From the NCBI RefSeq assembly GCF_022637395.1, contig NZ_CP093338.1, positions 558,001-622,000 on the forward strand: a DNA stretch of 64,000 bases, read 5' to 3'. The notes under the pieces were generated by a model. It did not search any database and was not told where the DNA came from. It saw only the letters and a program-made list of their open reading frames with translations. Position 1 is the stretch's first letter; each line of letters starts with the position of its first letter. Both the position numbers and the translations under genes were made by a program. Shown piece after piece: positions 1-24,590 of this stretch. This DNA comes from Shinella sp. H4-D48. Its GTDB lineage: Bacteria; Pseudomonadota; Alphaproteobacteria; Rhizobiales; Rhizobiaceae.

Positions 1-1
1 G

Positions 2-2727: not shown

Positions 2728-2751
2728 TCATTTTACCCAAGAGTGAAGAGC

Positions 2752-3309: not shown

Positions 3310-3517
3310 AATCTGCTCCTTTGTGCCGATGACCCAGACGCGGACCGCGTCTCCCAAGGTTCGGCTCCCGACTAAGGGACAGAACTGGTACGAGGCGGCC
3401 ACAACAGAAGTTTCAAGAAATCGGCACTGCGCGTCGAAAAGTCGTCACTGCTTTCGATGCATCGACAGTCCCGTCAAGACCAGAGGGTTCTGCACGACAA
3501 CCAGCAGCAAAGCGCGG

Positions 3518-5501: not shown

Positions 5502-6413
5502 ATGTTGCCTGTCATCGTTCCTGTCCAAGCCGACGCCATGGCGTCCGTTGCTCATCTGACCTTCCCAACGTTCGTCGGGGCATTCTCGAAAGAGGCTTGG
5601 GCAGACGCGCCAGCTGTCCCGCTTCGGGTTGTTGCCTATCGTAGGGGCACGCCGGTCGGCCTCGCATTGGCGCTCCACCGCAAGGACTATGGGCAGGGAG
5701 AATTGTTGTCGCTGGCGGTGGACAGGGCTTTTCGCAGACAGGGAATTGGAGTGGCGATCCTGCGAGAGGTCGAAGGTCATTTGCGCGCTGCTCATATCGC
5801 TCAGATTTCTGCTCGGTTTTCAGATCGCCTGCCTGAAAGCTCGGCATTCGGCGCCACGGTAGCCAGTGCGGGTTGGAACGGGCCCGTGCCAGAACGAATC
5901 CGTATTATGGGACGAGTGGGGAATACGCTCGAGGTTTTCCGCGACAGGGAAAAACTGCTTAAGCGCGCCTTGCGAGATGGGCTTATGCTCGTCCCGTGGC
6001 GTAACTTCCCCCACGACGCCAAGTCACATATTCTCCGGACAATTGCGGAAGGGCGTGCCCCTGGATGGAGCAGTGCGGGACTTTTCTCCGATAATTTCGA
6101 CCCAGATTTCTCAATGGTTCTCACCACAGGTGCCGATACGATCGTCGGTTGGGTTATCTGCCATTTCCATGCCGGCGTGCGACGATGGAGTTTTCCGGTG
6201 GGCTGGATCGCCAAGGAGTACCAGCGGCGGGGTTGGCTGCTCGTTGCCTATGCAGAGGGCGCGCGGCGCCTAGGCGAGCAGTTCGGTTCTGACTCAATCG
6301 CGGTTCTTGAAAGCACAATGGGGTTGCCAATGATGTGGCGCGTTCTCGAAGATCGGTTCGCCCCTTATGCGCAAGTGGCAGACCGTATCCTGAGCGTCGA
6401 CAAAAAGCTGTAA
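5502..6413 (+). CDS. GNAT-family acyltransferase, putative RiPP maturase 1
   Basis: A 303-residue protein with two GNAT-like halves. The first has the acyl-CoA-binding signature LLSLAVDRAFRRQGIGVAIL (motif A, RRQGIG) at about residues 68-90. The second begins around TIVGWVICHF and ends YAQVADRILSV. It is a distant paralogue of the GNAT gene at 8758-9723, which shares ELLSIAV..RRRGIA, VVGWV and AQVADR. Each of the two is followed directly by a precursor-peptide gene on the same strand. In selidamide RiPP clusters, GNAT maturases attach fatty acyl groups to Lys or Orn side chains of NHLP/Nif11-type precursors. That role is inferred here from context, and no acyl specificity can be read. A GGAG lies 11 bases before the ATG. 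Confidence 0.8.
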   Translation: MLPVIVPVQADAMASVAHLTFPTFVGAFSKEAWADAPAVPLRVVAYRRGTPVGLALALHRKDYGQGELLSLAVDRAFRRQGIGVAILREVEGHLRAAHIAQISARFSDRLPESSAFGATVASAGWNGPVPERIRIMGRVGNTLEVFRDREKLLKRALRDGLMLVPWRNFPHDAKSHILRTIAEGRAPGWSSAGLFSDNFDPDFSMVLTTGADTIVGWVICHFHAGVRRWSFPVGWIAKEYQRRGWLLVAYAEGARRLGEQFGSDSIAVLESTMGLPMMWRVLEDRFAPYAQVADRILSVDKKL

Positions 6414-6593
6414 ACGTACGAGTGGGACGAAACATCAACATCGCGGGACAGAATGGTATCGGCACCATCTGGCGCTAAGTCAATGTATTACATAACAATT
6501 CAGCAACCTCAGAAAAGCGGCCAATACGGGGCAAACGCTTTTCGTTCGAAAGGGGCCAAGTTACCAACGCCAGAACCGAAAGGACTATCGAAA

Positions 6594-6914
6594 TTGGCCA
6601 ATACGATGACGGCTATTCGCAACCACATCACGGCGCAGATAACTGAACGCGCAGTATCTGACACAGCGTTCCGCGCTCTCTTGAAATCCGATCCTCACGC
6701 AGCTCTGAGAGAGATGGTGGGCGCCGATCCTGTTCCTGGCTTCAAGATCAACGTGATCGAGGAACGGGCCGGTGAAATAAATATCGTCCTACCTGCAAAT
6801 ATCGAGAAGGACGAACTACCGGATGAGCTGCTCGATCTTGCTTCGGGAGGGATCGGATTTAGTGCATTCGTCCTGTATGGCCCCAACGACGCTCCGCCAA
6901 AACCGCGTCGTTAA
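6594..6914 (+). CDS. NHLP-leader (proteusin-type) RiPP precursor peptide
   Basis: A 106-residue precursor with a nitrile-hydratase alpha-like leader: HITAQITERAVSDTAFRALL, then KSDPHAALREMVG, then INVIEERAGEINIVLP, ending LLDLASGG (Gly-Gly at 85-86). The presumed core is the last 20 residues, IGFSAF... to PPKPRR, with one Lys, two Arg, three Pro and no Cys, Ser/Thr-poor. The frame is open to 6453, but family leaders start close to the HITAQITER segment. A TTG at 6594 has AAAGGA 9 bases upstream, better placed than for the ATG at 6606, so TTG is preferred. It lies 180 bases downstream of GNAT 1 and is probably cotranscribed with it. Cleavage after Gly-Gly by a C39 peptidase is expected from the family. 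Confidence 0.88.
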   Translation: MANTMTAIRNHITAQITERAVSDTAFRALLKSDPHAALREMVGADPVPGFKINVIEERAGEINIVLPANIEKDELPDELLDLASGGIGFSAFVLYGPNDAPPKPRR

Positions 6915-6924
6915 CGCCAACTGA

Positions 6925-6950
6925 GGCGGCCTGCATCAAGGCGGGCCGCC
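6925..6950. terminator. Hairpin between convergent RiPP genes
   Basis: Inverted repeat GGCGGCC / GGCCGCC with a 12-base loop between the convergent precursor and radical SAM genes. There is no strong T-run, so it is only a moderate terminator candidate. Confidence 0.45.
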
Positions 6951-6965
6951 GTGGATGTTAAACGG

Positions 6966-8486
6966 TCAGATTAAAGGCCTATCGCGCCGCCTCGTCGTTT
7001 CATCCCATATGCCCTCGCGCTCAAGCATGAACCGGGCTTGGCAGTAGTAAACAAAGATTGTTGTCAGAATACTCAGCAGATCTGGCCTGGCATGCGCTGC
7101 CTTGTCGAGCATGCGAATGAGCGCATATTCTGGCCTGCCACTTCGGGCCAGCCGACGCGCCAGCGCCGCGTTCATGCCTGAGAAGAATGGCATGCGCTCC
7201 TGCGGTCTATGCTCTCCACAAATGTCTACGAAAGCTGCGACACGCTCAGCAAACAGCTCGGCGGAAAAAACACGGTTCAGAAGCCAGATCATCCCGTTAC
7301 GCAGAGTCTCGTCGCTCATCAAAAGCGGGCGTATGTTCGTACCGACGACCGAGGCTGCAGATTGTCTGCCATCGATCAGCCGACCGGCGGCCGCCAGTCG
7401 GGCATGAAGTGGCGTGGCATCCGGCGCCACAAGCAAACCGGGACTGACAAGTGGCAGCGGCATGGCCTGAATGAAGGCGGCCTGTCGCTCGAAGATATCC
7501 GGGCCGTCTTGGTCGAAACCGACGACAATGCCGCCAAAGGCGAGGATCCCGTGCTCGGCGATGGTCCTGATACGGCCGATCATGTCCGCATTCAGGTTTT
7601 GCCGTTTACCCGCCAGGGAAAGGCTCTCCTCGTTCGGCGTCTCGATACCGATGAAGGTCATTGCGAAGCCGCTCTCGCGCAGGAGGTTGAGGATATCTGC
7701 ATCGCGCGCAATGTCGATCGAGACCTGGGTTGAAAAGGCCATGCGGTCGCCTGCGGGCCTATCGTTCCAGCACGCAAGCGCCTCCAAAAGCGATCGCGTG
7801 CGCCGGCGCATCACGGTGAGGTTGTCATCGGCGAAAAACACGGACCTGTAGCCATAGCCATGCAACAAATTAAGCTCTTCGATGACGCGCTCCGGCTCCT
7901 TCCAGCGCTGCTTGCGTCCCAGATACTGTATAACGTCGCAGAACTCGCATTCGAAGGGACAGCCGCGAGAAGTCTGAACCTGCGCCGTCATTGCGTGGCC
8001 GGGCGGATAGAGATCCCAGCGCGGCAGGGGGCCGGCCCCGATATCGGGTTTCGTTCCTCGATATTCAGGCTTGTAGCGACCGGAAGAAAGGTCGGCGAAG
8101 AGCTCTGCCGCTATCTCTTCTATCTCACCGATGACGAGGATATCCGCATAGGTCCGGACCTCTTCGGGTGAGAGCGAAGCATAGGAGCCGCCGATGATGA
8201 TCTTGCGGCCACGCCTTTGAAACTCGGTGGCAAGCTCACGGAGACGCTCTCGCTGGGTGATCTTGCCGGTCAGACCGATGAATTCGGCGGATGCATCGAA
8301 ATCGACAGGTTCAACACGTTCGTCACAGAGGCGGACGGCCCAGTCTGCCGGCGCAAAGGCGGCGACAGTGGGCATGGCAAGGTCAGCCATCCCCACTGCC
8401 CGTATGCCGGCCCACGCCTCAAGCACCTCAAGTCCAAAGTAGCCGGGAACGCTTTCGGCCGGGTTGATGAGATAGAGGCTAGGCAT
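6966..8486 (-). CDS. B12-binding domain radical SAM enzyme (DUF4070-like), putative RiPP-modifying
   Basis: A 506-residue protein. An N-terminal cobalamin-binding-like Rossmann domain (about 1-140, with IIIGGSYASLSPEEV and ADILVIGEIEE) precedes a radical SAM core with C176-x3-C180-x2-C183 in SRGCPFECEFC. The core continues with the FFADDNLTV motif and FIGIETPNEESL; the C-terminal part resembles DUF4070. Family members use SAM and, often, cobalamin for C-methylation or other radical reactions; the hopanoid methylase HpnR and the Poy C-methyltransferases are relatives at domain level. It is third in a minus-strand set GNAT 2 - Nif11 precursor - this gene, 12 bases after the precursor. Its substrate is likely one or both peptides (inference). 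Confidence 0.85.
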   Translation of the reverse strand: MPSLYLINPAESVPGYFGLEVLEAWAGIRAVGMADLAMPTVAAFAPADWAVRLCDERVEPVDFDASAEFIGLTGKITQRERLRELATEFQRRGRKIIIGGSYASLSPEEVRTYADILVIGEIEEIAAELFADLSSGRYKPEYRGTKPDIGAGPLPRWDLYPPGHAMTAQVQTSRGCPFECEFCDVIQYLGRKQRWKEPERVIEELNLLHGYGYRSVFFADDNLTVMRRRTRSLLEALACWNDRPAGDRMAFSTQVSIDIARDADILNLLRESGFAMTFIGIETPNEESLSLAGKRQNLNADMIGRIRTIAEHGILAFGGIVVGFDQDGPDIFERQAAFIQAMPLPLVSPGLLVAPDATPLHARLAAAGRLIDGRQSAASVVGTNIRPLLMSDETLRNGMIWLLNRVFSAELFAERVAAFVDICGEHRPQERMPFFSGMNAALARRLARSGRPEYALIRMLDKAAHARPDLLSILTTIFVYYCQARFMLEREGIWDETTRRRDRPLI

Positions 8487-8498
8487 CGGAAGCGCGTG

Positions 8499-8777
8499 TC
8501 AACTGAACCGCGCGCCTTTCACCGAATCCTTCATTCGCGGTGGTGATACGATCCCACCGGCGACCAGGTCGAGGTCCGCATCGGACAGCTCGCCGGACGA
8601 CGCCGTGTGTTGTGCAAGCGCGATTATCAATTCGTCTTCCGAGAAATCGAATCCTTCCCGCGCTGCGAGTTCCACAACAGCGGATGCCCCTTCTGCGAGC
8701 GCTGTGGCAGCCTCGCTTTCGAGGTTGGCGTCCGAACGGACCTTGTCGTAAAATTGTTCAAGCGCTGCAATGCTCAT
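8499..8777 (-). CDS. Nif11-type leader RiPP precursor peptide
   Basis: A 92-residue peptide with a Nif11-like leader: ALEQFYDKVRSDANLESEA, then AAREGFDFSEDELIIALAQ, then ELSDADLDLVAGG, with Gly-Gly at 74-75. The presumed core is 17 residues, IVSPPRMKDSVKGARFS, containing two Lys and two Arg and no Cys or Thr. The gene starts inside the end of GNAT 2 (20-base overlap) and has AGGAAAG upstream of its ATG. The close coupling with a GNAT and the radical SAM gene marks it as a maturation substrate. The core differs completely from the NHLP precursor at 6594, so the locus would make two products. Confidence 0.88.
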   Translation of the reverse strand: MSIAALEQFYDKVRSDANLESEAATALAEGASAVVELAAREGFDFSEDELIIALAQHTASSGELSDADLDLVAGGIVSPPRMKDSVKGARFS

Positions 8778-9723
8778 GGGTGCTTCCTTTCCTGTTGAAC
8801 GACGTGGAGGATGACTGGGCGGGCGCAGTCCGCACCGCCAGAATTGTTTCGACGCGGTCGGCGACCTGCGCGAAGCGCCGGCGCGTTAGAGCGACCATGC
8901 GCGGGCGGGTAGGATCCGTGTAGTATGTCGCCACGGAGTCGCGCCCCAACAGCATGGCCTGCCGCGTGTAGCAGTGGTGATAGGCCCCGATGGTTATACC
9001 GCTGTGCCAATAGACAGGGTCGAGAAAGGCCTCGTCATAGTGAATGGAACGCTCCGCCGGTTGGGATGCGACAACCCAACCCACGACTGTGCCCTCTCGG
9101 CGGATAAGTGTACTGAAGGCTGGCGCCATGCGGTCCGTCAGAGCGAGAGGGCCAAGCATTCCGTTAGCCTCCGGCCGCAAGAGACAGGTGGACACCGCAG
9201 TCCGGTCCGCATCAGACAAGTTCATCGTGGCGTAGTCGTAGAGGTGCGGCTGCGCGAGGCGGCCAGAGATGGCACGCCATGCGCCAACCGCCTCAGCCAT
9301 TGCCCCTGCCCGCCCCGTGACCAAGAGGCCGTCTTCCGCGGGTGCGCTCCAGCCGGCTCGCGCCGCGAGGGGCTCGAAGGCGGCGCGGCCGGCATTCGTT
9401 TCGCTGTAACGGGCGATCATGCTGAACGCGCCACGGCGGGCGGCTTCCTCGCTCCATGCCTGAACAAGCGCAAGGGCGATGCCGCGCCGACGCTCGGCCG
9501 GCGCAACAGCGATCGACAAAAGTTCCGCCTCTTGGGTGCCATTACAGATGCCGAGCGCAAGCCCGACCGGCCGGCCGCCGGCGATGGCGCCTACGGCGAT
9601 GACGGACGGCTCCAGCGAAATGAGCAGGCGATGGTAGCGGTTAAAGGTCAAGCCGGAGAACAGGCGTGCATCGCCGGTCAGCAGAACGGTGCGGCAGACA
9701 TGCATTCTCATGATCCCGCTCAT
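8758..9723 (-). CDS. GNAT-family acyltransferase, putative RiPP maturase 2
   Basis: A 321-residue protein (330 if the ATG at 9750 is used; 9723 has GGAG 8 bases upstream). Motif A of the GNAT fold is visible as ELLSIAVAPAERRRGIALAL; a second GNAT-like half contains TVVGWVVAS and ends RFAQVADRVETILAV. It overlaps the Nif11 precursor gene by 20 bases, as expected for a dedicated maturase. Its relation to GNAT 1 (shared motif order and C-terminal AQVADR) suggests an old duplication of a GNAT-precursor module whose precursors now have different leader types. Acyl donor and target residue are unknown; Lys side chains of the core are the best guess by analogy with selidamides. Confidence 0.8.
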   Translation of the reverse strand: MSGIMRMHVCRTVLLTGDARLFSGLTFNRYHRLLISLEPSVIAVGAIAGGRPVGLALGICNGTQEAELLSIAVAPAERRRGIALALVQAWSEEAARRGAFSMIARYSETNAGRAAFEPLAARAGWSAPAEDGLLVTGRAGAMAEAVGAWRAISGRLAQPHLYDYATMNLSDADRTAVSTCLLRPEANGMLGPLALTDRMAPAFSTLIRREGTVVGWVVASQPAERSIHYDEAFLDPVYWHSGITIGAYHHCYTRQAMLLGRDSVATYYTDPTRPRMVALTRRRFAQVADRVETILAVRTAPAQSSSTSFNRKGSTHEHCSA

Positions 9724-9914
9724 CCCTTCAGCTCCGCACAACTGCCACATGCAAGCCCTTTACGCTCCAGTTTCAATTCCAGCGCCCGATAGGCGATTGC
9801 CGCAATTGGCCTGAAGCGTGTTTGTCTTCAGTCTTTACCAAAAGAAAGGGAGAGGCTTGCGAATGGGACGATATGCTCGAAGATTGGGATGCAACATGAC
9901 CTGAAGCGTGTGGG

Positions 9915-10949
9915 CTACGCCGTGGCGCGCAACCTGTCGAGCCAGGCCTGCATCCAGTTGTCGTCGCCTGCGCCAATATCGCTCTTGAGACGGATGCCCG
10001 CCTCCGCATTGCGGATCGCCTCACTTGGCCGTAGGCCGAAGCGTTGATGGAAGGCACGGGAGAAAGCGTTCTCGCTGGCAAAACCTGTCGCATATGCAAG
10101 CTTGGCGACGGAGCCGCGCGATAAACCGACGGATGTGAGCTTGAGATAGGCGAGCTTCAGCCGGCGCTCGCGGATGTACTCGGCAATGCCGCCGATTGGC
10201 TCGAAGAGACGGTATAGCGCCGAGCGCGACAGGGCGAACTGGCGCATGAGCATATCAGCGGATAGCGCTGGATTGGTAACGTTGCGCTCGATAAAGATCT
10301 GGATCGTCTGAACGTTGATATCCATTAGCGTCGCACGCTCAGCCGCCACTGCGGCTGAAAATCCGCTGGACACGATGGCTGAAGCAACCTCTGCTGCCAG
10401 CTTACCATCGGGACCGGCGAGTTGCGGCGCCACCTTCGCCATCGTGCGCATATGCTCGCCGAGCAGCACGCCGAGGGTGGAGGAGCCATTGACGCGGGCG
10501 CCGTGCAGATCATCGATCACGCGAGGGGTCAGGCGGATCATCGAGCGTGGCAGAATGAGGCTTATAATATCCATATCCGTCGCTTGGCTTTTCATCGGAC
10601 GGCTGAGATCGAAGCAAACGATATCGCCCTTAACGCCAGTGGCCACCCCGCCATCCGCGTTGTAGGCACACTCTCCCTTCAAATACAGCTGGATAAGCAA
10701 ATGATCGACGCCCGTGGCGGCGACCCGTTCGCGCGAGCGCACAAAACCTTGGGCAGTCGCGGAGGACATGCCTATGAGAAAATGGCCGATATTGTAACTC
10801 GTCAGGTCAGCCCGGAAGCCTTCCAGGTTGCCTGTCGGCGGAACCGCATCAAACAGGCTCGCGACGCCTGTACGCCAGTACTCGTAATTCTCCTCACGGC
10901 TCAGCTGCGAGGACAGGATACGTTGATGTTCGATAGTCTCCGTGGTCAA
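9915..10949 (-). CDS. AraC-family transcriptional regulator
   Basis: A 344-residue regulator. The N-terminal AraC-binding-like (cupin-like) domain is followed by a C-terminal double HTH with SADMLMRQFALSRSALYRLF and SVAKLAYATGFASENAFSRAF (about residues 230-315), then GLRPSEAIR. It stands alone between the RiPP genes and the export operon on the same strand, so it may control either; direction of regulation is unknown. A 12-base direct repeat CCTGAAGCGTGT occurs at 9810-9821 and 9900-9911 just downstream of the gene, in the GNAT 2 upstream region, and might be a binding half-site pair (weak). Confidence 0.88.
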   Translation of the reverse strand: MTTETIEHQRILSSQLSREENYEYWRTGVASLFDAVPPTGNLEGFRADLTSYNIGHFLIGMSSATAQGFVRSRERVAATGVDHLLIQLYLKGECAYNADGGVATGVKGDIVCFDLSRPMKSQATDMDIISLILPRSMIRLTPRVIDDLHGARVNGSSTLGVLLGEHMRTMAKVAPQLAGPDGKLAAEVASAIVSSGFSAAVAAERATLMDINVQTIQIFIERNVTNPALSADMLMRQFALSRSALYRLFEPIGGIAEYIRERRLKLAYLKLTSVGLSRGSVAKLAYATGFASENAFSRAFHQRFGLRPSEAIRNAEAGIRLKSDIGAGDDNWMQAWLDRLRATA

Positions 10950-11052
10950 GCCGCGCCTCCCCGTTCAACGCGCCACCGATGTATACCCTGTCATGCTCAA
11001 TTTTTCGTATCTTGCAAGGGCAGGATTTCGCGGGAAAGCCGCTTTGCAAGCC

Positions 11053-11391
11053 TCACACAATTGCTGACACCACCAGCCACGCCCAGACGATCTTACAGGC
11101 GATGTGCAACGCCTGATCGGTGTGGATGGACGTAATGCCATGATTCTTCATGCTGTCGATGATGAAATGCATCATCATTTCAAGCAGGCCGATGAGAAGC
11201 GATCCGGTTGCAACTCCCGCCAGCCCGCCGTGGATGATCGCATGCGCACCGAGAAGGTGGTACCAAGGGACGCCGGAGGCCGGCGTGTTCCAGTTCTTGC
11301 CGCGCGCCATGAAGTCGTTCTGAAGCGGATAGTCTCCAAGAGCATGTCCAAAGATCAGAAGCGCGAGAAGTGTGGCGTAAGCCTCGATCAT
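11053..11391 (-). CDS. DUF3307 membrane protein
   Basis: A 112-residue protein with three or four hydrophobic helices. It carries the DUF3307 features of a short N-terminal helix with GHALGDYPLQNDFMA, then AHAIIHGG and HFIIDSMKNHG. The conserved His/Asp residues in helices look like a membrane metal site, but no function is established for the family. Its ATG overlaps the stop of the preceding cNMP-domain gene (ATGA), so it is the last gene of the long export operon. Confidence 0.8.
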   Translation of the reverse strand: MIEAYATLLALLIFGHALGDYPLQNDFMARGKNWNTPASGVPWYHLLGAHAIIHGGLAGVATGSLLIGLLEMMMHFIIDSMKNHGITSIHTDQALHIACKIVWAWLVVSAIV

Positions 11392-11933
11392 GCACCGCGC
11401 TCCGCCACGCCTGACAGCCGCGCCAAAAGATGCTCGAAGCGGGCGCCGGCAAGCGACAGCGTATCGAGAATGCCCTCGTCAAGTTCATCCTCCATCACAA
11501 CGCCGGCCGAAAGGCCCGTGCGCGCATTCATGCGTTGCGTTGTGTTGCGCAAACGATCTGCCAGGAAGATGGCGAGAGCCTTGTAGAAGCGCGCGCCAAA
11601 ACCTGGATTCTCGGTGAGTCGCACTTGGATGTCGCGCTTGTCGACGCCGAGGATGAGCGCGCCCGCCACCGCTTCAACCGTCGCAGAAGGCGGCGCGGAG
11701 TCGATCAGAGACATTTCTCCAACGACTTCGCCACGCCCCAGACGCGCCACCTCGCCAACACCGGAAACGCGAACGACGACCTCGCCCGCCAACACGAAGA
11801 ACAACTCGCTGACCGGGATCCCCTCACAGATGAGCACAGTATCCGGTTCCGGCTGGAAGCGGCGGCCCTTTCGCACCAGCCACTCGATGTCCTCGTCGTC
11901 TAGCTGGCCAAGAATGTAGAGTACCTTTCGCAT
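11388..11933 (-). CDS. Cyclic-nucleotide-binding-domain protein without DNA-binding domain
   Basis: A 181-residue protein. A CRP-type cNMP-binding fold spans about residues 1-115 (ELFFVLAGEVVVRV, then GEVVGEMSLIDSAPPSATVEA) with a helical tail and no HTH, so it is not a CRP-like regulator. In the phosphate-binding cassette the usual Pro-Arg-Ala/Thr-Ala is Pro-Pro-Ser-Ala: the ligand-phosphate Arg is missing, so ligand binding may be lost or altered. The start overlaps the stop of the second exporter gene (TGATG). The same operon encodes a class III cyclase, so a link to cyclic nucleotides is tempting but the Arg loss argues for caution. CNBD proteins do occur next to NHLM exporters. Confidence 0.82.
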   Translation of the reverse strand: MRKVLYILGQLDDEDIEWLVRKGRRFQPEPDTVLICEGIPVSELFFVLAGEVVVRVSGVGEVARLGRGEVVGEMSLIDSAPPSATVEAVAGALILGVDKRDIQVRLTENPGFGARFYKALAIFLADRLRNTTQRMNARTGLSAGVVMEDELDEGILDTLSLAGARFEHLLARLSGVAERGA

Positions 11934-14794
11934 CAGTTTTCCTTCTCAAGCAGCTGTCGGCAAGCAAGTGCATGGAATACCCCACGTGCCGCCATCAAGT
12001 CATCATAGGTACCGCTTTCCACCAGTCGCCCCTTGTCCATGACAAAGATGCGGTCGACATTCATGATGGTGCTGAGCCGGTGTGCAATGACAATTCGGGT
12101 TACTGAAAGCCGCGCCAATGTATCGGTCACGACGCGCTGGGTACGGTTGTCGAGCGCGCTCGTCGCCTCATCGAGCAACAGGATATTCGGTTCGCTGACC
12201 AGCGCGCGCGCCAGAAGGATTCGCTGGCGCTGGCCGCCCGAGAGGGCGTTACCGCCATCGTTGAGCACGGTGTGCATTCCCATGGGCATAGCCTCGATGT
12301 CGGCAGCGAGTGCCACGAGCCGCGCGGCTGCCCACGCTGCTTCCAGCCCGTGACCGGACGCGCCGGCGATATTGTGATAGACAGAGCCAGGGCTGATGCG
12401 TCCGTTTTGCAACACGACGCCGATCTCTGCCCGCAACGCCGCGGGGTCGAGCCGGTCAGCGGGTCTTCCGTCGAAGAAGACAGCCCCGTCCTCCGGCATG
12501 TCAAAGCCCAGCAGCAACCGCATGATGGTGGATTTACCGCTCCCGGATTCTCCGACGATGGCAACATATTCGCCCGGTCGGATGGTAAAATTCACGTCGC
12601 GCAACACGAGTGGCGCGCCCTTGTGGTAACGGAAGTGCACGCGACTGAAGGCGATCTCGCCGGAGAGCCGACCCGGCGCCTCCCGCAGGCTGGTGGCTTC
12701 GGGCTGCGCTTTGAGCAGCGGCACCGTGCGCGAAACCAAGGGGCCGATGGCAAGCAGTTCCGAAATTGCGGTTACCGCAGCCACGAAGGCACCTGAAGCC
12801 TGTCCGAATGCAGCAGCGAAGGCGACAAACATGCCGGCCGACAGCGTTCCTGCCCCATCCGGACCACCAGTCCCATCCACCAACGCCGCGATCGCAGCCT
12901 GCGCCGTCTCGTATCGGAAGACGAGCAACAGGCAACCGAACAGGAAAAGAAGCGACATGGGCGGGAGCACTGAAAGTGCGACAGTCTGCCAACCGCTGTA
13001 GAAGCGCGCCCGCTCGAAGGCGTGCCGCTCGGGCATCGACCGCCAAACCCATTCGGCGAAAGCGCGCATCTCCGCCGCCGCTGCCCGTAACTTTGGCAGG
13101 CCGACCAGAACCTGCAGAAGAAACCCCTCGATCTTACCGTTCAGGTGCGCGCGCTCCCGCTCGTAGCGCAACTGCCGACGAGAAATCCAGCCGCATACGA
13201 GCGCCATGACTGCGAAGGGCAAGAGCGCGAATAGCGCTAGGCGCCAGTTGATGAACAGCATTGTCAAAAGGCCAGTAATCGTACCCACGAAGCCAAAAAG
13301 GCCACTGAGAGTGGAGGCCGTGAGTATCTGCCGTACCTCCTGAAGCCCAAGAGCACGCTGACCGAGATCGCCCACTGAAAATCCTTGGAAGAACCGGACG
13401 GGAAGACGCAGGAGACGCAACATGATCGCCGCTTGCAACTTCGCATCCAGCGCCGCTTCCATGCGGGCTACACTCATGGAACGCGTCAATTCGAAAAGCG
13501 ACTGGCCAAGCGCGGCTGCGGTCAGCAACAACGCCACCTGCAGCAATCCCGCCCGATCGTTCATCGGTACGACGCTGTCAAAAAGGACCCCAGTGGCAAC
13601 CGGAACGGCGGCCATGGCTGCAGCCGCAAGCACCGCCGTCAGAGCGATCCGCCACATATCCCTGCCGAGCCCCCGCCCCGCAAAAGTTAGCAAATCGCTA
13701 ATACCGAGGCTGCGGTCCTCGAGCATCGGGTAAACCTGCAGAGCGCTGGCCTTAACTGTCATGGCGAACGCCGCGTCGACCTTGCGGTCGACCGACGTGC
13801 CGACAGCACGAAAACCACTGCCTCGCGTTGGCAGGAGCGCTAATGGGTCGCCGGCCACTGTCTGCGCCAGCATAGGAAGCCCGTCGCGCGTCCACCAGCC
13901 GTCGCCCAGCACAATGGGGCGGCCAGCAAGATTCAGTTCGGCGAGAATCGGTTCAAAGGCATTCAACTCCTTCGCTCGCCCGCGTCCAGCGTCCGGTATG
14001 CGTTCCAACTGCTCGCCGAAGGCCTCCATCACGTTTTCAACGGCAAAGAGCCACGGATTTTGTGAAGCTTGCCTGCCGCTGGCGCGCGCGTCTGCGAGTG
14101 CCTTCAATGCCTCCGAGAAACGCCGCACGGATACCTGGTCCCGGCCCTCCTGGCGATCTCCGGCCATCCGCCGCTCAGTTGCTAAAGCGTTTGTAGCCCA
14201 TATGATCACAGCATGCGCAAGCAGTTCGAGCCCTCTGGCAATATCCTGAGAACGCGGCTCGCGCACGGGGCGAAGCACAGTCGTCTCTGCCGCAACCACT
14301 GCGGATGGTGCAGCGAGTGGGAAACATGCACCCTGTGGAAGATGAAAACCGCCCCACGTCAGGCCATCTGTCTCGGCCACGACGTAAGAGACCTGCCCCG
14401 CCGCTGAAGAGCAGGTCTCACCCTCTGCAAGATGAAGGCTTTCACCTTCGATCATCCTGCCCGGCCACGACCGCGCGGGGGTGACAGCAGCACTCAAATT
14501 CCGGACCCAGTCACCGGCGTGCACACTCGCCTCATCGAAACCAAGGGAACGAAAACGCGAACCAAGTCCGCCCACGGCAACGAGCATTCCCGAAGCAACA
14601 GGTGGCGTGGAGACGATCACCACGCCCGCATCCAACCGAAATAGGTGACGGCGGGCCTCTCCTTGCCGGTCGACCACAAAGATATCGGCATAACCTTCGA
14701 CCAACTGATAGCCGGCAAATCCCGTATCCAATGCCAATGGGCGATTGCCGCCACCCTCTATCAGCACATCCCGGGCGAACGCCTGTGACATCAA
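11933..14794 (-). CDS. NHLM-type bacteriocin export ABC transporter, second subunit
   Basis: A 953-residue protein. A long N-terminal region without a C39 peptidase (about residues 1-370) is followed by a six-helix ABC membrane domain and a C-terminal ATPase with complete motifs: Walker A GESGSGKST, signature ALSGGQRQR, Walker B ILLLDEATSALD and the H-loop in VIAHRLS. This matches the ABC2 component of NHLM (NHLP leader microcin) export systems, normally partnered with a peptidase-containing ABC1. It overlaps the ABC1 gene as ATGA. The expected role is export of peptides with NHLP/Nif11 leaders after leader removal by ABC1. Confidence 0.9.
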   Translation of the reverse strand: MMSQAFARDVLIEGGGNRPLALDTGFAGYQLVEGYADIFVVDRQGEARRHLFRLDAGVVIVSTPPVASGMLVAVGGLGSRFRSLGFDEASVHAGDWVRNLSAAVTPARSWPGRMIEGESLHLAEGETCSSAAGQVSYVVAETDGLTWGGFHLPQGACFPLAAPSAVVAAETTVLRPVREPRSQDIARGLELLAHAVIIWATNALATERRMAGDRQEGRDQVSVRRFSEALKALADARASGRQASQNPWLFAVENVMEAFGEQLERIPDAGRGRAKELNAFEPILAELNLAGRPIVLGDGWWTRDGLPMLAQTVAGDPLALLPTRGSGFRAVGTSVDRKVDAAFAMTVKASALQVYPMLEDRSLGISDLLTFAGRGLGRDMWRIALTAVLAAAAMAAVPVATGVLFDSVVPMNDRAGLLQVALLLTAAALGQSLFELTRSMSVARMEAALDAKLQAAIMLRLLRLPVRFFQGFSVGDLGQRALGLQEVRQILTASTLSGLFGFVGTITGLLTMLFINWRLALFALLPFAVMALVCGWISRRQLRYERERAHLNGKIEGFLLQVLVGLPKLRAAAAEMRAFAEWVWRSMPERHAFERARFYSGWQTVALSVLPPMSLLFLFGCLLLVFRYETAQAAIAALVDGTGGPDGAGTLSAGMFVAFAAAFGQASGAFVAAVTAISELLAIGPLVSRTVPLLKAQPEATSLREAPGRLSGEIAFSRVHFRYHKGAPLVLRDVNFTIRPGEYVAIVGESGSGKSTIMRLLLGFDMPEDGAVFFDGRPADRLDPAALRAEIGVVLQNGRISPGSVYHNIAGASGHGLEAAWAAARLVALAADIEAMPMGMHTVLNDGGNALSGGQRQRILLARALVSEPNILLLDEATSALDNRTQRVVTDTLARLSVTRIVIAHRLSTIMNVDRIFVMDKGRLVESGTYDDLMAARGVFHALACRQLLEKEN

Positions 14795-16959
14795 ATGGTC
14801 CCCCGCACGAGGGCGGCATATTCGCCGTCAAGCGCCATCAGTGTGTCATGATCGCCGCGCTCGACGATGCGTCCCCGATCGAGCACGATAATCTCCTCAC
14901 AATCGCGGATGGTGCTCAGCCGGTGCGCGATAATCAGGCAACCGCAGCCCCGGCGGCGCAAGTTGTCATCGATCTGCTTTTCTGTGACGGGATCGAGCGC
15001 CGCGGTGGCCTCGTCGAGAACGATCAGTGAGGGGCTCGCAGCAAGCACGCGCGCCAGTTCAAGCCTCTGGCGCTGGCCGCCGGAGAAATTCAATCCCCCC
15101 TCGGCCACAGGTGCATCGAGCTGGCCGGTGCGCATGAGGACATCATCGAGTATGGCTGCGTCCGAAAGCGCTGCGACCAGAGCCGCCTCAGGAAGCGAGG
15201 CGTCCCAGAGTGTGAGATTGTCACGCACGGAGCCTTCGAAAAGGAAGATCTCCTGATCGACGTACCCGATGATACGGGACCGGGTCGCTTGAGTGAGCAT
15301 CCCCGCATCAACGCCGCCGATGCGGATTTGACCTGACCAGGGCGATTGAAGACCGGCGATCATGCGCCCGATAGTCGTCTTGCCGCTGCCGGAGCCGCCG
15401 ACGAGCGCGATACGCGCGCCGGGTTTCAGGGTCAACGAGAAATCTGCGATCAATGGAGGATCAAGCGGTGAATAACCGAAGCTAACGCGGTCAAGTTCGA
15501 TGCGGCTGGAGGCCGGTTCCGTGGCCGTATCACCGACGGCTACAGTCTGCGCGCGCGAGATATCGGCGATCTTCACCAGATCGGCACGAATCGTCTGGAT
15601 CTGGCCGGCAAGACCAATGAGGTCGAGTACGGGTGCGTTGAAGCTCTGAGCGAGCCCCTGAAAGGCGACAAGCGCGCCGATGGACAGATCACCCCGCATG
15701 ACGCTCACCGCGCCGACGACAAGAACGAGAACGGCCGTTAGCGACTGGATGGAAGCGGGAATGGCATTGACCAACGTCTGGGTAAGCGCCAAGTCAGCGC
15801 GCGTGCGCAAAACACCGCTGTGGTGCCCGGCCCACTGCAGGTAGGCATGTGCCTCCATGTTTGAGGCTTTAAGCGTCTCGATGGCGCGGATTGGGCCGAA
15901 CGTAGCGGCAAGAAGATTGCCAAGGCCGGAGGATAGCTTGAGGCTTTGCCTGCGTTGCACCTTTCCACCCTGATAAACGACGAGGACGTAGAGAAGTTGG
16001 GTCGCCAGGATAAAGACGGCCAGCAGCGGGCTGATCAGCCAAAGGACGACGGCGTAGGCGAGAAGGCTCGTCAGGTTGAACACCGTCGAGGCAAGCCGTC
16101 CGGACAGGAGGTCCGCAATGCGCTCGTTGGCATTGAGGCGACTGGCCATCTCGCCGGGGTGGCGTTGCGCGTAGAACTCTGCGGGCAGGCGCAACATATG
16201 CCAGAGCAGCTTGCTCGCCGGCACACTTACCTGCTTCAGTTCCAGTCGCCGGAGCCCTGCCTGTTGCAGCGCTGTCGCAAAGCCGCGCAAGACAAGTACG
16301 GCCAGCATCGCGACCGTGAAGGCCAGTAGCCAGTCGTGCTGTCGGTCGATGAGGATATTATCGATGAAGACACGTGTGAAGACCGGGACGGCGATGCCGG
16401 GGATCACCAGCGCCATCGATGTGAGGAGAACGAAGAAAACCCCCTTCCTGGAGCCCCTCAGGCGTTCCAGCATCATCGGCAGCGCGAGCGGCGGTGCGCC
16501 AGCGCTTTCGAACGTCTCAGCCGGCTCAAAGGCGAGGACAACCCCCGTGAAGGCCTCGGCGAGCTCACGAACTGTAATCGTACGGCGACCCGTGGCGGGG
16601 TCGTTGACGAAAACGCGATCGCCCCGAATGCCCTCGAGGACGATGAAATGGTTGAAGTTCCAGTGCAGGATCGCCGGCCATGGAATATCCCCAAGCCCAT
16701 CCGCTTCCTTGCGAAAACCCTTGGCGACAAGCCCGAAATGACGCGCAGCCTTGAGAAGATTGCTCGCCTTCGTCCCGTCGCGCGAGACGCCGCAGGCAAT
16801 ACGCATGTCCTCCAGCGTCACCCAGCGGCCGTAATGAGCAAGCACGATAGCAAGACTTGCCGCGCCGCATTCCACCGCTTCGATCTGCAGGATCTGCGGC
16901 GTCGCGCGCGGACGCTTGCGCCTGGACAGAACGCCATGGGAGCGAGCGAGGCCGCTCAT
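14791..16959 (-). CDS. NHLM-type export ABC transporter with C39 peptidase domain
   Basis: A 722-residue fusion. The N-terminal C39 double-glycine peptidase has the Q-x-E-AVECGAASLA motif with catalytic Cys31, His104 (NHFIVLEG) and Asp120 (FVNDPATG). It is followed by a six-helix membrane domain and an ATPase with GGSGSGKTT, FSGGQRQR and LIVLDEATAALD. It removes Gly-Gly leaders and exports the mature peptide, matching the ABC1 component of NHLM systems. The ATG overlaps the stop of the HlyD-like gene as ATGA. Likely substrates are the products of the precursor genes at 6594 and 8499. Confidence 0.92.
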   Translation of the reverse strand: MSGLARSHGVLSRRKRPRATPQILQIEAVECGAASLAIVLAHYGRWVTLEDMRIACGVSRDGTKASNLLKAARHFGLVAKGFRKEADGLGDIPWPAILHWNFNHFIVLEGIRGDRVFVNDPATGRRTITVRELAEAFTGVVLAFEPAETFESAGAPPLALPMMLERLRGSRKGVFFVLLTSMALVIPGIAVPVFTRVFIDNILIDRQHDWLLAFTVAMLAVLVLRGFATALQQAGLRRLELKQVSVPASKLLWHMLRLPAEFYAQRHPGEMASRLNANERIADLLSGRLASTVFNLTSLLAYAVVLWLISPLLAVFILATQLLYVLVVYQGGKVQRRQSLKLSSGLGNLLAATFGPIRAIETLKASNMEAHAYLQWAGHHSGVLRTRADLALTQTLVNAIPASIQSLTAVLVLVVGAVSVMRGDLSIGALVAFQGLAQSFNAPVLDLIGLAGQIQTIRADLVKIADISRAQTVAVGDTATEPASSRIELDRVSFGYSPLDPPLIADFSLTLKPGARIALVGGSGSGKTTIGRMIAGLQSPWSGQIRIGGVDAGMLTQATRSRIIGYVDQEIFLFEGSVRDNLTLWDASLPEAALVAALSDAAILDDVLMRTGQLDAPVAEGGLNFSGGQRQRLELARVLAASPSLIVLDEATAALDPVTEKQIDDNLRRRGCGCLIIAHRLSTIRDCEEIIVLDRGRIVERGDHDTLMALDGEYAALVRGTI

Positions 16960-18218
16960 GCGCCGAACGCCTTGTGCAAGAGCGGCAACAAGAAAGAGGC
17001 AGGCGTGCGTCTGTCGATGGTAATCCGTGCTTTCCCTGTTGTGCCTGCGCTTAGCGCAGCCGCCGCGCCGGTGCCGCCTGACCAGCGGTAACCGCTCACT
17101 GTCGCCGCGTCACGCTCGAGGTCCACGACCACCGAAAATGGGGCACCTTCCTTGGAGAAGCGTGCCACCAAAACGTCGTTCTGCAAGGTGGCCTGCATAC
17201 CTTCGCGTGTGGCCGGGAATTCGGAGACGGAAAGCACACGCCCGACCAGGGTTCCCCATTGTTCCTTCTCGAGGCCACCGAGTTCGACATTGACGAGCAT
17301 GCCCGCCGCGATACGCTTGCCCTCGGCCGGCGGCACATACAGAACGAACTGCAGGCTACCCTCGCCTGAGGCTATGCTGGCGATGCGCGAGCCGGCCGGC
17401 GCATAGGCCCCGAATGGCGCCTTCCATTCGACCAGCGTCCCATCAGCCGGACTTGTAACCTTGCCAAAGAGTGAAAGCTGTAGATCGAGCTGCTTGACCT
17501 CTGCTTCGGCCAGCAGCACCTTCTGGTTTTGCTCGAACAAGCGGCGCTGGTCTTCCGACTGAGCGGCAAACTCCTCGGCGGAGATCGCCAGAAGACCCGT
17601 GCGCGCCGTCGCGATGTCGAGTGTAGCGCTCGCGAACTGTTCACGAGTTTGCTGCACGGCAAGTGCTGTCATCGCCCCGCCAGCGGCCAGCTTTTCCTGG
17701 TTGCCGACCAGCTTTTCATAAGCCGCGCGACGCTGCTCGGCAGCGCGCATCTGCGCGTCCAGCGAAGCCTTGCGCGCCTCTGCATTCGCCTGCCTCGCCT
17801 CGGCCACAGCGGCCTGCTCGCGGCGCAATGCCTCGAGCGCACCATATGCCGCTTGCGCCTGGGTCCGAGCAATTTCCAGTCGCGCCGCCGCATCGGGCTG
17901 ATCAATCTTGGCGAGGACATCACCCTTGCGAACCTTCGTTCCAACGGGTGAGCCAGCCGAAGACAGCGTGCCCGATGCCATGGAAATGGCGTCCACCATC
18001 TGACCGCCGCCAGAAAACAGGATGCCCTGCCCTTCGATGCGTGTTGGAATGCGGGCCGTGAACGCCCAGATAATTGCTGTGGCGATGAGGATAAGGAGAC
18101 CAGCAAGCGCCGCCCAGTAACCGGAGCCTGTTATCACGATCGCCTCATCGAGCTGCTCGGGCGAGGACAGGCGGTCGAGCGCTTCCTTACGATAGAGGCT
18201 GGATTTCTTTTCGCTCAT
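16956..18218 (-). CDS. NHLM bacteriocin system HlyD-like adaptor protein
   Basis: A 420-residue periplasmic adaptor: short cytoplasmic N-terminus, one transmembrane helix (about residues 33-52), a lipoyl-like half (GTKVRKGDVLAKIDQPDA), a long alpha-helical hairpin (about 110-245, rich in Ala/Gln/Glu), and a second lipoyl half with SPADGTLVEWKAPFG, then a beta-barrel. It would join the inner-membrane ABC pair to the outer membrane. No TolC-like gene lies nearby. It overlaps ABC1 by 4 bases and follows the cyclase gene by 9 bases. Confidence 0.88.
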   Translation of the reverse strand: MSEKKSSLYRKEALDRLSSPEQLDEAIVITGSGYWAALAGLLILIATAIIWAFTARIPTRIEGQGILFSGGGQMVDAISMASGTLSSAGSPVGTKVRKGDVLAKIDQPDAAARLEIARTQAQAAYGALEALRREQAAVAEARQANAEARKASLDAQMRAAEQRRAAYEKLVGNQEKLAAGGAMTALAVQQTREQFASATLDIATARTGLLAISAEEFAAQSEDQRRLFEQNQKVLLAEAEVKQLDLQLSLFGKVTSPADGTLVEWKAPFGAYAPAGSRIASIASGEGSLQFVLYVPPAEGKRIAAGMLVNVELGGLEKEQWGTLVGRVLSVSEFPATREGMQATLQNDVLVARFSKEGAPFSVVVDLERDAATVSGYRWSGGTGAAAALSAGTTGKARITIDRRTPASFLLPLLHKAFGA

Positions 18219-18227: not shown

Positions 18228-20432
18228 CTATTTCCCCTGCGCCACGAAGACGCCATCCCACCCGGCTTCCGGCGGATTGGCGGCCAACTCGGCGAGCCGC
18301 TCGGCGTACAGCGCATAAAGTCCTGAAAGTTCAGCAATTTCCATGGCACGGAGTGTTGCAAGGGCCTCGCCGGCGGCACGGAAATCCCCGGCGCGGTAGA
18401 GGTCGAGAAAGGCATCGTGCCGGCGCTTTACAGCGACGAAGTCCTCACTTTGGGCCATCACCTCATCCCCGAGGAGGGTATAGAGCCGCACGGGTGCGGC
18501 CCGTCCCTTCACCCGCACGAAATCAGCTTCGAGAAAGGCGAGGTCTGCCACCGCCTGCCGGGTAAATTCGCTGACCGCGATCGTCACGCCATAGAACTTG
18601 GTCAGGCTTTCGATCCGCGACGCCAGATTGACGCTGTCGCCAAGGGCTGAATAGCTAAAGCGATGGGCCGAGCCGAGATTGCCGACACAGGCTGCACCGC
18701 TGTTGAGACCGATACCAACACGGATCGGCACGCTGCGGGCCAGGTTCAGACGCTCTACGGCGCGTACCATGTCGAGTGCTGCTCGACATGCCTTGGATTC
18801 GTGATCAACGATGTCGAGCGGTGCATTCCAGAACGCCATGATTGCATCGCCGATATATTTGTCGATGGTCGCCTCATGGGTGAGCAGCACATCCGTAAGC
18901 GGGGTCAGCACATCGTTGATGAGACCAGTCAGCGCCTGCGGGTCCATGCCCTCTGAAAGGCTCGTGAAGCCTCGGATATCAGAGAAGAGTACGGTCAGTC
19001 GGCGCGTCTCGCCGCCGAGCTCAAGCGCCTCCGGCTCCTGCGCAAGCCGCTCTACCAAGGCGGGCGCGAGGTATCGGCCGAAGGCATTCTTGACGAACCG
19101 TTTCTCGCGATTTTCCAGCGCGAGCCTCAAAGGAGTCAGCGCGAGAAAGATGACCAGCATCGTCATAACGGTTCCGGTTGGATCGAGTAGAGTCCGCGCA
19201 CGAGCGAAAGAAAGCCACGATGCAGCGAAGCACAGGCTGACGAGGCCGGCAAACAGCAGCGCGCTCGTCTGCGCCGCGCAACGACTGGCGACCCAAACGA
19301 GCACGCCGCCCATAAGAAGCGTTGCGATCAGAATCGCGCCCGGTGCCCAGTCTGGCTCCTTTAGAAAGATGCCTGCGACGATCTGATCAACAATCTCCGC
19401 GTGAATGTTGACGCCCGGCATCGAGAGGGAGACGGGAGTTGCAACTATATCGCGCAGGCCGACCGCACTGGTTCCAATGAGAACGATGCGCCCCTCCAGC
19501 ATGGACAGATCTGAGTTGGCCTCCAGCAGGGTGGCGGCGCCGACAACCGGCATCCTGGCAAGCCCGGAAAAGTAGACGCGCATGCTGCCATCCGGCGCCG
19601 TTGGCACGGTGAGCTCGCCTACACGCATCGCGCTCATCCCAGGCGATCCGCCTCCTCCATCGCCGCTGGCATCATTGCTGCGAATCTGGAAGCCGGGCGC
19701 ACCGAGCGCCAGCCTCAGAGTCTCCATGGCGAGCGCGGGATAGAGCCGATCACCCGAAACGGCCGCAAGCGGCATCGTGCGAATAATGTGGTCGCGGCTG
19801 TTCTCAAATGAGAAGAAGCCCGCTCCCGGTGCGACCGCGTGCAGACCGTCGAGATTTCGCACCGCACCGCGAAAATGAGGCAAATACGTCCTGGGATCGT
19901 GGCCACCGTAAGCGAAACCGGCCTTGGCCTGCGGCGGGAGCTCTCCATTTTCGTTGGTGAGCGCAAGACCCACAGCAGCTGGCGCCCGGGAGAGAGATTC
20001 GGCGAGAGCCGCATCGCTGTCGAGAGATGCGGCATCCAATGGCAGATCAACGCGAGCCCCTCGTTTTCGCAAATTCTCCGCCGCCGCTTCCAGCGATAGG
20101 CGATCCGGCTCGGAGAACACGATATCGAAACCGATAGCGGCGACGCCCGCTGCCGTTAGACGATCCACCATGCGGGCAATGACGTCGCGCGACCACGGCC
20201 ACTGCCCGAGACTGGCAATGGAAGCCTCATCGATATCGACGACCGCCACGGGCGGTTGTTCCGTGTCCGGGCGCGGCTGGATGCGCTGGTAAGCATCGAA
20301 CAGTGAGTCTGAGACGATGTCCGTAGCAGCCGGAAAACTCCGCAATGTCGCAAGGCATAGCAACAGCGCGGCGCCCCCCACCGACGCCGTCACCAAGTGC
20401 GATTTTCGCCGCCCTGCCCGCACGCCACCCAT
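18228..20432 (-). CDS. CHASE2-domain adenylate/guanylate cyclase
   Basis: A 734-residue membrane cyclase. It has an N-terminal transmembrane helix, an extracytoplasmic CHASE2 sensor (about 35-330, with VAVVDIDEASIASLG and GQWPWSR), three more transmembrane helices (about 345-425), and a class III nucleotide cyclase domain (about 465-640) with metal-binding Asp residues in LFSDIRGFTSL and DKYIGDAIMAF. A short alpha-helical tail follows. It converts ATP (or GTP) to a cyclic nucleotide in response to an envelope signal. It sits between the FecR gene (5 bases) and the NHLM adaptor gene. Two cNMP-domain proteins are encoded nearby (11388 and 28368), possible receivers of its product. Confidence 0.92.
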   Translation of the reverse strand: MGGVRAGRRKSHLVTASVGGAALLLCLATLRSFPAATDIVSDSLFDAYQRIQPRPDTEQPPVAVVDIDEASIASLGQWPWSRDVIARMVDRLTAAGVAAIGFDIVFSEPDRLSLEAAAENLRKRGARVDLPLDAASLDSDAALAESLSRAPAAVGLALTNENGELPPQAKAGFAYGGHDPRTYLPHFRGAVRNLDGLHAVAPGAGFFSFENSRDHIIRTMPLAAVSGDRLYPALAMETLRLALGAPGFQIRSNDASGDGGGGSPGMSAMRVGELTVPTAPDGSMRVYFSGLARMPVVGAATLLEANSDLSMLEGRIVLIGTSAVGLRDIVATPVSLSMPGVNIHAEIVDQIVAGIFLKEPDWAPGAILIATLLMGGVLVWVASRCAAQTSALLFAGLVSLCFAASWLSFARARTLLDPTGTVMTMLVIFLALTPLRLALENREKRFVKNAFGRYLAPALVERLAQEPEALELGGETRRLTVLFSDIRGFTSLSEGMDPQALTGLINDVLTPLTDVLLTHEATIDKYIGDAIMAFWNAPLDIVDHESKACRAALDMVRAVERLNLARSVPIRVGIGLNSGAACVGNLGSAHRFSYSALGDSVNLASRIESLTKFYGVTIAVSEFTRQAVADLAFLEADFVRVKGRAAPVRLYTLLGDEVMAQSEDFVAVKRRHDAFLDLYRAGDFRAAGEALATLRAMEIAELSGLYALYAERLAELAANPPEAGWDGVFVAQGK

Positions 20433-22987: not shown

Positions 22988-22988
22988 G

Positions 22989-24398: not shown

Positions 24399-24590
24399 GC
24401 AGTGATCGAAGTCCCATCCCATCGTGGCGCTCAATTAACACGGGGAGCAAAGACGTGACGAGAAATCAATAGGTTATGATGGGTGCCAATCCGTCCCAAA
24501 CTAGTCGCTTTTTGTCCCAAGCCTCGTTTTCAGCCTCCAAGGCGCGTCTGCTTCCGCTATCGATCGCATGGCGGACGAGACGGTTTACGA
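24399..24590. promoter_or_regulatory. Divergent promoter region of the two export operons
   Basis: The 192 bases between the divergent Slam-like gene and the second C39-ABC gene must hold both promoters. The run TCAATTAACACGG near 24431 and the TTAACAATAGAC near 24386 are AT-rich, but no promoter could be assigned with confidence. Sharing this region suggests joint control of the NHLM operon and the asymmetric ABC operon. Confidence 0.4.

Follow-up and report, generated by a model that had tools for sequence, protein, structure and literature searches.

We describe here a window of 64,000 nucleotides from Shinella sp. H4-D48 (positions 558,001 to 622,000 of NZ_CP093338.1, part of an 892,686-base contig in a 4.77 Mb genome of three contigs) and, near its start, a locus that we read as encoding two ribosomally synthesized and post-translationally modified peptides (RiPPs), each paired with its own putative acyltransferase of the GNAT family. 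On the plus strand from position 5502, the gene for the tandem GNAT acyltransferase GNAT1 (303 residues, 5502..6413; Pfam Acetyltransf_1 42.5 bits, cut-off 20.7) is followed by its partner, an NHLP-type precursor of 106 residues (6594..6914, from an inferred TTG start; TIGR03793, below cut-off). On the minus strand, the gene for a second tandem GNAT, GNAT2 (319 residues, 8758..about 9717 from its presumed start; Acetyltransf_1 43.7 bits), overlaps by 20 nucleotides that of its partner, a 92-residue Nif11 precursor (8499..8777; PF07862 above cut-off, TIGR03798 44.9 bits against 32.3). After a further 12 nucleotides begins the gene for a 506-residue B12-binding radical S-adenosylmethionine (SAM) protein (6966..8486, minus strand), with PF04055 at 58.2 bits (cut-off 29.5), PF02310 just above its cut-off (33.5 against 32.1 bits), DUF4070 above cut-off and the motif CPFECEFC, that is CxxxCxxC. 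These five genes, the strands and overlap of the two modules and the pairing of each leader class with a GNAT had been proposed by a first-pass annotation, and open reading frames, Pfam and TIGRFAM scores confirm the genes and their layout and support the pairing. The same annotation had the modules converging on the radical SAM gene: a B12-type gene is indeed there, but because it is co-oriented with the Nif11 gene and starts 12 nucleotides past its stop, it looks like a member of an apparent single minus-strand operon, with GNAT2 and the Nif11 precursor, rather than a neutral meeting point.

Both precursors have the form of a leader ending in Gly-Gly followed by a short core. The NHLP-type reading frame is open from an ATG at 6453, and a TTG at 6594, nine nucleotides past AAAGGA, yields 106 residues; we infer the TTG start because the resulting MANTMTAIRN... 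aligns with the start of the Pleomorphomonas precursors (MSDTMTAVRN...), all three then being 106 residues long. Its leader ends in ...LDLASGG and the core, which begins IGFSAFVLYG..., is IGFSAFVLYGPNDAPPKPRR; the Nif11 leader ends in ...LDLVAGG and its core is IVSPPRMKDSVKGARFS. Each core contains a lysine. The NHLP-type core matches the core of a precursor from Ensifer PDNC004, LGFSAFLFYNDRDRPSTPACKK, with a score of 52 that none of 100,000 shuffles reaches (maximum 43), and the match stands when set against all 419 cross-leader pairs. Once their last 13 residues are removed, the two leaders align with a score of 25; shuffling gives 24.5 on average, and 1280 of 3000 shuffles do as well. A second NHLP core, from genome G641 (VGFSSFLPP...), matches the Ensifer core in the same way (0/100,000 shuffles). 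The three Ensifer leaders fall under the cut-off for Nif11 families throughout (PF07862 18.5 bits, no match and 13.0 bits; TIGR03798 13.5-15.8 bits), NCBI names one of them Nif11-like, and when the leader that belongs to the matching core is aligned with the window Nif11 leader, the score is 38, a value reached by 43 of 3000 shuffles. Judged from these alignments, the window NHLP core recurs in Ensifer behind an unrelated, weakly Nif11-like leader. Two further candidates for a core shared across leaders were set aside: a second core type (Azospirillum NHLP, M. soli Nif11, Ensifer short) is reached by 178-857 of 100,000 shuffles, which is not significant after 419 pairs and only suggestive, and the pair IKTRPASSG/IVKIRPASSN (Pleomorphomonas Nif11 and G1236 NHLP) stands at 0.001-0.0015 per pair, likewise not significant after correction. 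Other GNAT loci carry Nif11 precursors whose cores begin with lysine and are rich in histidine or valine (L029 12047-12397; L030 5729-6130; L081 9949-10338), the last two together with a PoyD-type epimerase.

The two GNATs are homologous for the greater part of their sequence, with 28% of residues identical in 252 aligned columns (E = 5e-18), and they share their order of motifs, as the first-pass annotation had noted. In both, the P-loop pattern (RRQGIG in GNAT1) lies in the N-terminal half and is absent from the C-terminal half; among the 28 GNATs in our tree, a few lack it at the expected place, G1236_1 has none whatever, and a few carry an additional match further on. GNAT2, the one for which the fold was modelled (AlphaFold2, 9 sequences), gave two GNAT-like halves, with a mean predicted local distance difference test score (pLDDT) of 76.9 and a predicted TM-score (pTM) of 0.68 for the best of five models. 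The top Foldseek matches were the tandem GNATs 2wpx/2wpw, a histidine acetyltransferase, one structure of which, at rank 11, holds N-myristoyl histidine, and VipF; over the first 20 rows the TM-score by query was 0.46-0.61, the root-mean-square deviation 5.2-7.8 and the identity 10-15%. The model would thus give GNAT2 a tandem GNAT fold, in agreement with the description of NpuN in PMC13060382 as a predicted tandem GNAT whose P-loop lies in the N-terminal domain.

In the tree, window GNAT1 is placed with the GNAT1s of Pleomorphomonas (support 100/99) and then with the NHLP-associated GNATs of G641 and G1236 (100/99), while window GNAT2 groups with the GNAT of Mesorhizobium soli (100/99) and then with the Nif11-associated GNATs of Pleomorphomonas (96/93). 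The next branch on the GNAT2 side is G506 (99/97), beside whose GNAT a precursor search found none. Since the two fall into separate supported clades, each with Pleomorphomonas members, the GNAT1 and GNAT2 modules are, on this phylogeny, old paralogues. Sister to the GNAT2 clade (99/98) stand the GNATs of Azospirillum and G1236_3, both beside NHLP-type precursors, the one so called at a TIGR03793 score under the cut-off (26.5 bits) and the other by its similarity to the first, and leader class therefore seems to have switched within the clade. An Ensifer GNAT has an extra N-terminal region of 276 residues (stretch L007, 14158-14985) with no Pfam match at 0.01. In cyanobacterial plasmids, TIGR03032 proteins occur as fusions with a GNAT that is akin to the tandem ones (L009 8822-10816; L078 6696-8807; L079 6696-8807); the matches that we considered there as NpuN or PhaN were rejected as such fusions or as reading frames, read by eye, of an unannotated Microcoleus plasmid, and a further plasmid search for these reference enzymes returned Nostoc and Microcoleus records again and neither enzyme.

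Beside the GNAT modules lies a complete NHLM export system with all three of its families above cut-off: a permease/ATPase subunit (ABC2, 11933..14794; TIGR03797 736.6 bits against 709.4), an ATP-binding cassette (ABC) transporter with a C39 double-glycine peptidase (ABC1, 14791..16959; TIGR03796 906.4 against 853.3, and Peptidase_C39) and a HlyD-type secretion protein (16956..18218; TIGR03794 260.2 against 156.2). They are on the minus strand, as are the genes that precede them, for an AraC-type regulator recognized by Pfam (9915..10949; 78-81% identical in Pleomorphomonas and M. soli), a DUF3307 protein conserved in the locus (11053..11391; PF11750) and a cyclic-nucleotide-binding, bacteriocin-transport-associated protein (11388..11933; PF00027, with TIGR03896 at 134.3 bits, below its cut-off of 161.05), and those that follow: a CHASE2 and adenylate/guanylate cyclase (18228..20432; by Pfam), which is kept in M. 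soli and Pleomorphomonas, a FecR-domain protein (20438..22987; PF04773) and a TPR protein (22989..24434; TPR above cut-off, and a weak outer-membrane beta-barrel match to OMP_b-brl_3, 0.0059, below cut-off). On the plus strand there follow a second C39-peptidase ABC transporter diverged from ABC1 (C39b, 24483..26591; PF03412, with TIGR03796 at 204 bits, below cut-off), a second transporter diverged from ABC2 (ABC3, 26569..28380; TIGR03797 155 bits, below cut-off) and a SulP-type transporter with STAS and cNMP-binding domains (28368..30548; by Pfam), the last gene common to the conserved locus. The cyclase and the two cyclic-nucleotide-binding proteins, one of them the SulP/STAS fusion, suggest cyclic-nucleotide control of export or regulation. 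The C-terminus of the FecR protein shows similarity to the surface lipoproteins that depend on Slam (NF041636, E = 1.2e-8, 35.3 bits, below the cut-off of 80; M. soli homologue 2.3e-7), and with the adjoining TPR protein (20438-24434), which like it has homologues in M. soli and Pleomorphomonas, it suggests a Slam-like (type XI) secretion pair within a RiPP locus. Just upstream of GNAT1 are the genes of two ECF-type sigma factors (320-1644 and 3518-4896), both accompanied by one for an RskA_C anti-sigma-type partner. Promoter-like sites (3 against 2.4 expected) and terminator-like sites (1 against 6.2) in window 4900-11400 were given no weight.

The GNAT family is rare and patchy. Hits to a 6-row GNAT profile at E <= 1e-12 came from 4 of 385 class-level and 7 of 394 family-level genomes, and hits to a 15-row profile at E <= 1e-15 from 3 of 398 phylum-level and 5 of 297 order-level ones, counts that include the window's own genome each time, draw some genomes more than once and rest on the best few candidates scored per genome. 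GNAT1 as a single query matched 2 of 61 genomes, its own and G023 (a 66-residue partial match), and none of 20 from the same genus. In Pleomorphomonas sp. NRK KF1 and JP5 both modules lie within one stretch of 24.4 and 24.9 kb, at opposite ends, in the order Nif11 precursors, GNAT2, AraC, DUF3307, cNMP protein, ABC2, ABC1, HlyD, cyclase, FecR, TPR, C39b, ABC3, SulP, GNAT1, NHLP precursor, each locus having been read as two pieces with about 2 kb between them outside the reading. GNAT1 and the NHLP precursor thus come after SulP there, whereas in the window they adjoin the Nif11 operon at the opposite end; flanking repeats that might mark a transposition of this module were looked for in window 1-11500, and none was convincing. 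M. soli NHI-8 keeps the same gene order as far as SulP; in the 7.9 kb beyond it neither GNAT1 nor an NHLP precursor was found, and the best few candidates scored in that genome included one GNAT. Identity of the window to Pleomorphomonas is 54-56% for GNAT1, 49-50% for GNAT2, 62-68% for the NHLP precursor, 59% for the Nif11 precursor (one per strain compared) and 60-77% for the main exporter; to M. soli it is 63% for GNAT2 and 67% for the Nif11 precursor. Identities of the two modules that run in step are as expected if the modules descended together, and the comparison is best explained by both being old parts of one conserved locus of about 25 kb; parallel acquisition of the two is possible. 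The Ensifer locus shows both leader classes more weakly than Pleomorphomonas does. A 3.8 kb contig labelled Propionivibrio (L075) also carries Pleomorphomonas-like locus genes, possibly through a binning error. Searched against plasmid records, window 5400-10000 returned no near-identical DNA, and window 33000-57500 matched 112 records, mostly Rhizobium, none over more than 80% of the stretch (best 26% cover at 77% identity).

The radical SAM gene probably has a different history from that of the modules. The stretches fetched from M. soli and from the two Pleomorphomonas strains showed no relative of it, and among 21 stretches from the GNAT survey (11 + 10, some of them pieces of one locus, and one, L032, showing no GNAT) it has a relative in one other, G940 (phmmer 4e-47; 27% identity). 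At E <= 1e-40, 7 of 101 genomes held a match, its own included, and none of 20 from the same genus did. Its nearest relatives are those of G455 (45% identity, or 42% over 497 columns in a second comparison) and SC52 (41.5%), with which it forms one clade (support 97/97); both of their genes are followed by those for a fatty acyl-AMP ligase (FAAL), a P450, an acyl carrier protein (ACP) and a carbamoyltransferase. This order, radical SAM to carbamoyltransferase, is common to a Rhodobacteraceae plasmid (L033 7860-15254) and a genome of the window's family (L046 7904-15439), and marks an unassigned pathway for a small molecule. The window gene is probably an acquired extra tailoring step in the GNAT2 operon. 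The first-pass annotation had called the company of a GNAT locus and a B12 radical SAM gene unusual, which is not supported. The G940 locus combines a GNAT, three Nif11-like precursors, a B12-binding radical SAM gene directly after them (45.7 bits, cut-off 32.1) and NHLM exporters, and a plasmid of Mesorhizobium sp. L-2-11 carries a Nif11 precursor, an epimerase, a GNAT, a radical SAM protein annotated as a RiPP C-methyltransferase, with C-x7-C-x2-C instead of CxxxCxxC and a B12-binding score under the cut-off (18.3 against 32.1 bits), and NHLM export. In G414, too, a PoyD-type epimerase lies near the GNAT. The radical SAM proteins of G940 and the Mesorhizobium plasmid belong to other subfamilies, and what appears unique to the window among the loci examined is its radical SAM subfamily.

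We propose that the locus makes two acylated ribosomal lipopeptides that are cut at Gly-Gly and exported, a reading to which we give a probability of about 0.62. The genes, the conserved pairing of GNATs with precursors, the lysines in the cores, the Gly-Gly sites, the exporter and the core found on another leader are read directly from the sequence, and the tandem-GNAT fold from a model built on it. GNAT1 would acylate the lysine of IGFSAFVLYGPNDAPPKPRR and GNAT2 a lysine of IVSPPRMKDSVKGARFS, a C39 peptidase would cut the leaders at the Gly-Gly site, and the products would leave through the NHLM transporter, the second C39 ABC pair or both; acyl transfer itself, the acyl site and chain length, the specificity of each GNAT for its partner and the substrate of the radical SAM enzyme are inferred. 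Two acylated peptides are plausible products, and lysine-acylated, selidamide-like ones the best reading. Lysine occurs in 39 of 42 cores gathered from GNAT loci, against 22.0 +/- 3.1 expected at the leader lysine frequency of 3.6% (maximum 34 in 20,000 draws), a count that overstates independence because several of the 17 strain or locus groups to which the precursors belong are close kin, even though all 42 cores are distinct. Several points weigh on the other side. The 42 precursors were collected by Gly-Gly motif and position, with coordinates and some cores set by hand or eye, and the three cores without lysine, all from G439, come from a locus with the same GNAT family, in which the leaders end in Ala-Ala, with no Gly-Gly at the expected cut. 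The NHLP-type precursor scores 46.6 and 47.7 bits against TIGR03793, under the cut-off of 50.9 (its Pleomorphomonas KF1 homologue reaches 50.0). The GNAT2 models vary in mean pLDDT from 58.0 to 76.9 (the other four 58.0-75.8), and the comparison of the window GNATs with the selidamide enzymes PhaN, NpuN and KamN rests on the published description of NpuN. Acetylation in place of a longer acyl chain is possible, and some RiPP GNATs are thought to act on the N-terminus (PMC12636437). If the GNATs were such N-terminal acetyltransferases, or conferred self-resistance, the products would be plain exported peptides. Roles of this kind are discussed in PMC13060382 and PMC12636437 and would accommodate the three cores without lysine, but the enrichment of lysine, the overlap of the GNAT2 gene with its precursor gene and the presence of one GNAT per precursor type, both here and, in another family, in the two Pleomorphomonas strains, make this improbable.

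Direct modification of the Nif11-derived peptide by the radical SAM enzyme, through C-methylation or cross-linking, falls somewhat short of an even chance in our estimate: the gene follows the Nif11 precursor at 12 nucleotides and in the same orientation, a distant B12 relative follows the Nif11-like precursors of G940, and the Mesorhizobium gene beside a GNAT and Nif11 is annotated as a RiPP C-methyltransferase, yet the window protein is a non-member of the RiPP C-methyltransferase family TIGR03975 (23.8 bits against 281.85), and the Nif11 module stands without this gene in the fetched M. soli and Pleomorphomonas stretches. Because its nearest relatives sit in fatty-acyl gene clusters, action on the acyl chain is a serious alternative, in which the enzyme would methylate or otherwise tailor the fatty acyl chain of GNAT2, free, bound to coenzyme A or on the peptide, and not the peptide itself; a divergent FAAL homologue also lies alongside the Acaryochloris relative. 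We hold this to be rather unlikely, at about one chance in a handful, given that four of the seven relatives whose surroundings were viewed showed no FAAL (Skermanella, Methylocystis and Bradyrhizobium by annotation, G820 by tblastn with the SC52 FAAL; among plasmid records with relatives, 5 of 37 were viewed), that a search of the window's own genome, made without a positive control, found none, and that 41-45% identity leaves room for a change of substrate. Still more doubtful, and a shade less probable than plain exported peptides, is a bolder scheme in which the GNATs read the core, the leader class is a replaceable export handle, and a radical SAM enzyme of fatty-acyl lineage, recruited in this genome to the Nif11 operon, rebuilds the attached acyl chain; its view of the leader would follow from acylated cores moving between unrelated leaders (NHLP, Nif11-like and perhaps short). 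As for origins, the first-pass annotation saw one duplicated module, and the common motif order and 28% identity of the GNATs would fit a recent tandem duplication in this genome; to this we give almost no credence, as the GNAT tree, with its separate clades, rules it out if the tree is right, and both modules occur in another family as well.

Two things set the locus apart: one of its cores turns up behind unrelated leaders, and the radical SAM gene in its Nif11 operon is apparently of lipid-cluster lineage. GNAT-acylated RiPPs are few, and those described in the sources consulted are lanthipeptides. A class II lanthipeptide was considered here and rejected, since no LanM was found in the genome, in a search whose control gave a match, itself below cut-off, in 1 of 14 genomes. 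The locus family suggests that alphaproteobacteria have a two-peptide type of GNAT-acylated RiPP; this genome yielded no lanthionine synthetase. Its short lysine-bearing cores should suit easy expression, and a single core behind unrelated leaders makes the leader requirement of a GNAT maturase directly testable. If the radical SAM enzyme does act on the acyl chain, fatty-acid tailoring would be linked to ribosomal peptides, and if it rebuilds the chain once attached, a new route to ribosomal lipopeptide diversity would be at hand.

Among known systems the selidamides come first, RiPPs in which, according to PMC9505594 and PMC13060382, a GNAT installs a fatty acyl group on (hydroxy)ornithine or lysine; phaeornamide pairs an NHLP precursor (PhaA) with the GNAT PhaN, and nostolysamide a Nif11 precursor (NpuA) with NpuN. 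GNATs related to NpuN adjoin NHLP or Nif11 precursors, and a lanthionine synthetase is not always present (PMC13060382). Like phaeornamide, nostolysamide and kamptornamide, the window combines a GNAT with a neighbouring NHLP or Nif11 precursor, a Gly-Gly site and ABC export; its cores hold lysine, where the selidamide acceptor is lysine or arginine-derived ornithine; and its GNATs are tandem with a P-loop in the N-terminal half only, as NpuN is by its description. Unlike them, it has two GNAT-precursor pairs in one locus, an FSAF-type core and an added B12 radical SAM gene, its acylation is predicted, and its genome has no detected lanthionine synthetase. Haft et al. (2010; PMC2887384) already noted that precursors of the NHLP and Nif11 types can share a cluster, and put forward a mix-and-match mode of evolution with the export system; the leader types, the TIGR03794/03796/03797 export cassette, the mixed clusters and the mix-and-match idea all recur here, with a GNAT in place of thiazole/oxazole-modified microcin (TOMM) or lanthionine machinery. 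Since such clustering and GNAT-precursor pairs are both published, mixed leaders with such pairs are of a known kind, and the claim that mixed leader classes are unusual is not supported, on this ground as well as through their presence in the Pleomorphomonas strains and, more weakly, Ensifer. A literature search over titles and abstract openings returned no two-module GNAT locus and no core common to NHLP and Nif11 leaders. In the G940 locus (L069), too, Nif11-like precursors are accompanied by a GNAT and by the gene for a B12-binding radical SAM enzyme, but that enzyme is only distantly related, the GNAT falls outside both window clades and no NHLP precursor was seen in the stretch. The Mesorhizobium L-2-11 plasmid shares a GNAT, a radical SAM gene, a Nif11 precursor and NHLM export, and differs in its GNAT clade, its radical SAM families, a Lys-first core and the single precursor seen. 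In Pleomorphomonas NRK KF1 and JP5, although GNAT1 and its NHLP precursor stand at the opposite end and the fetched stretches showed no window-type radical SAM gene, both GNAT-precursor modules are found together with the whole export and regulatory cassette, just as in the window.

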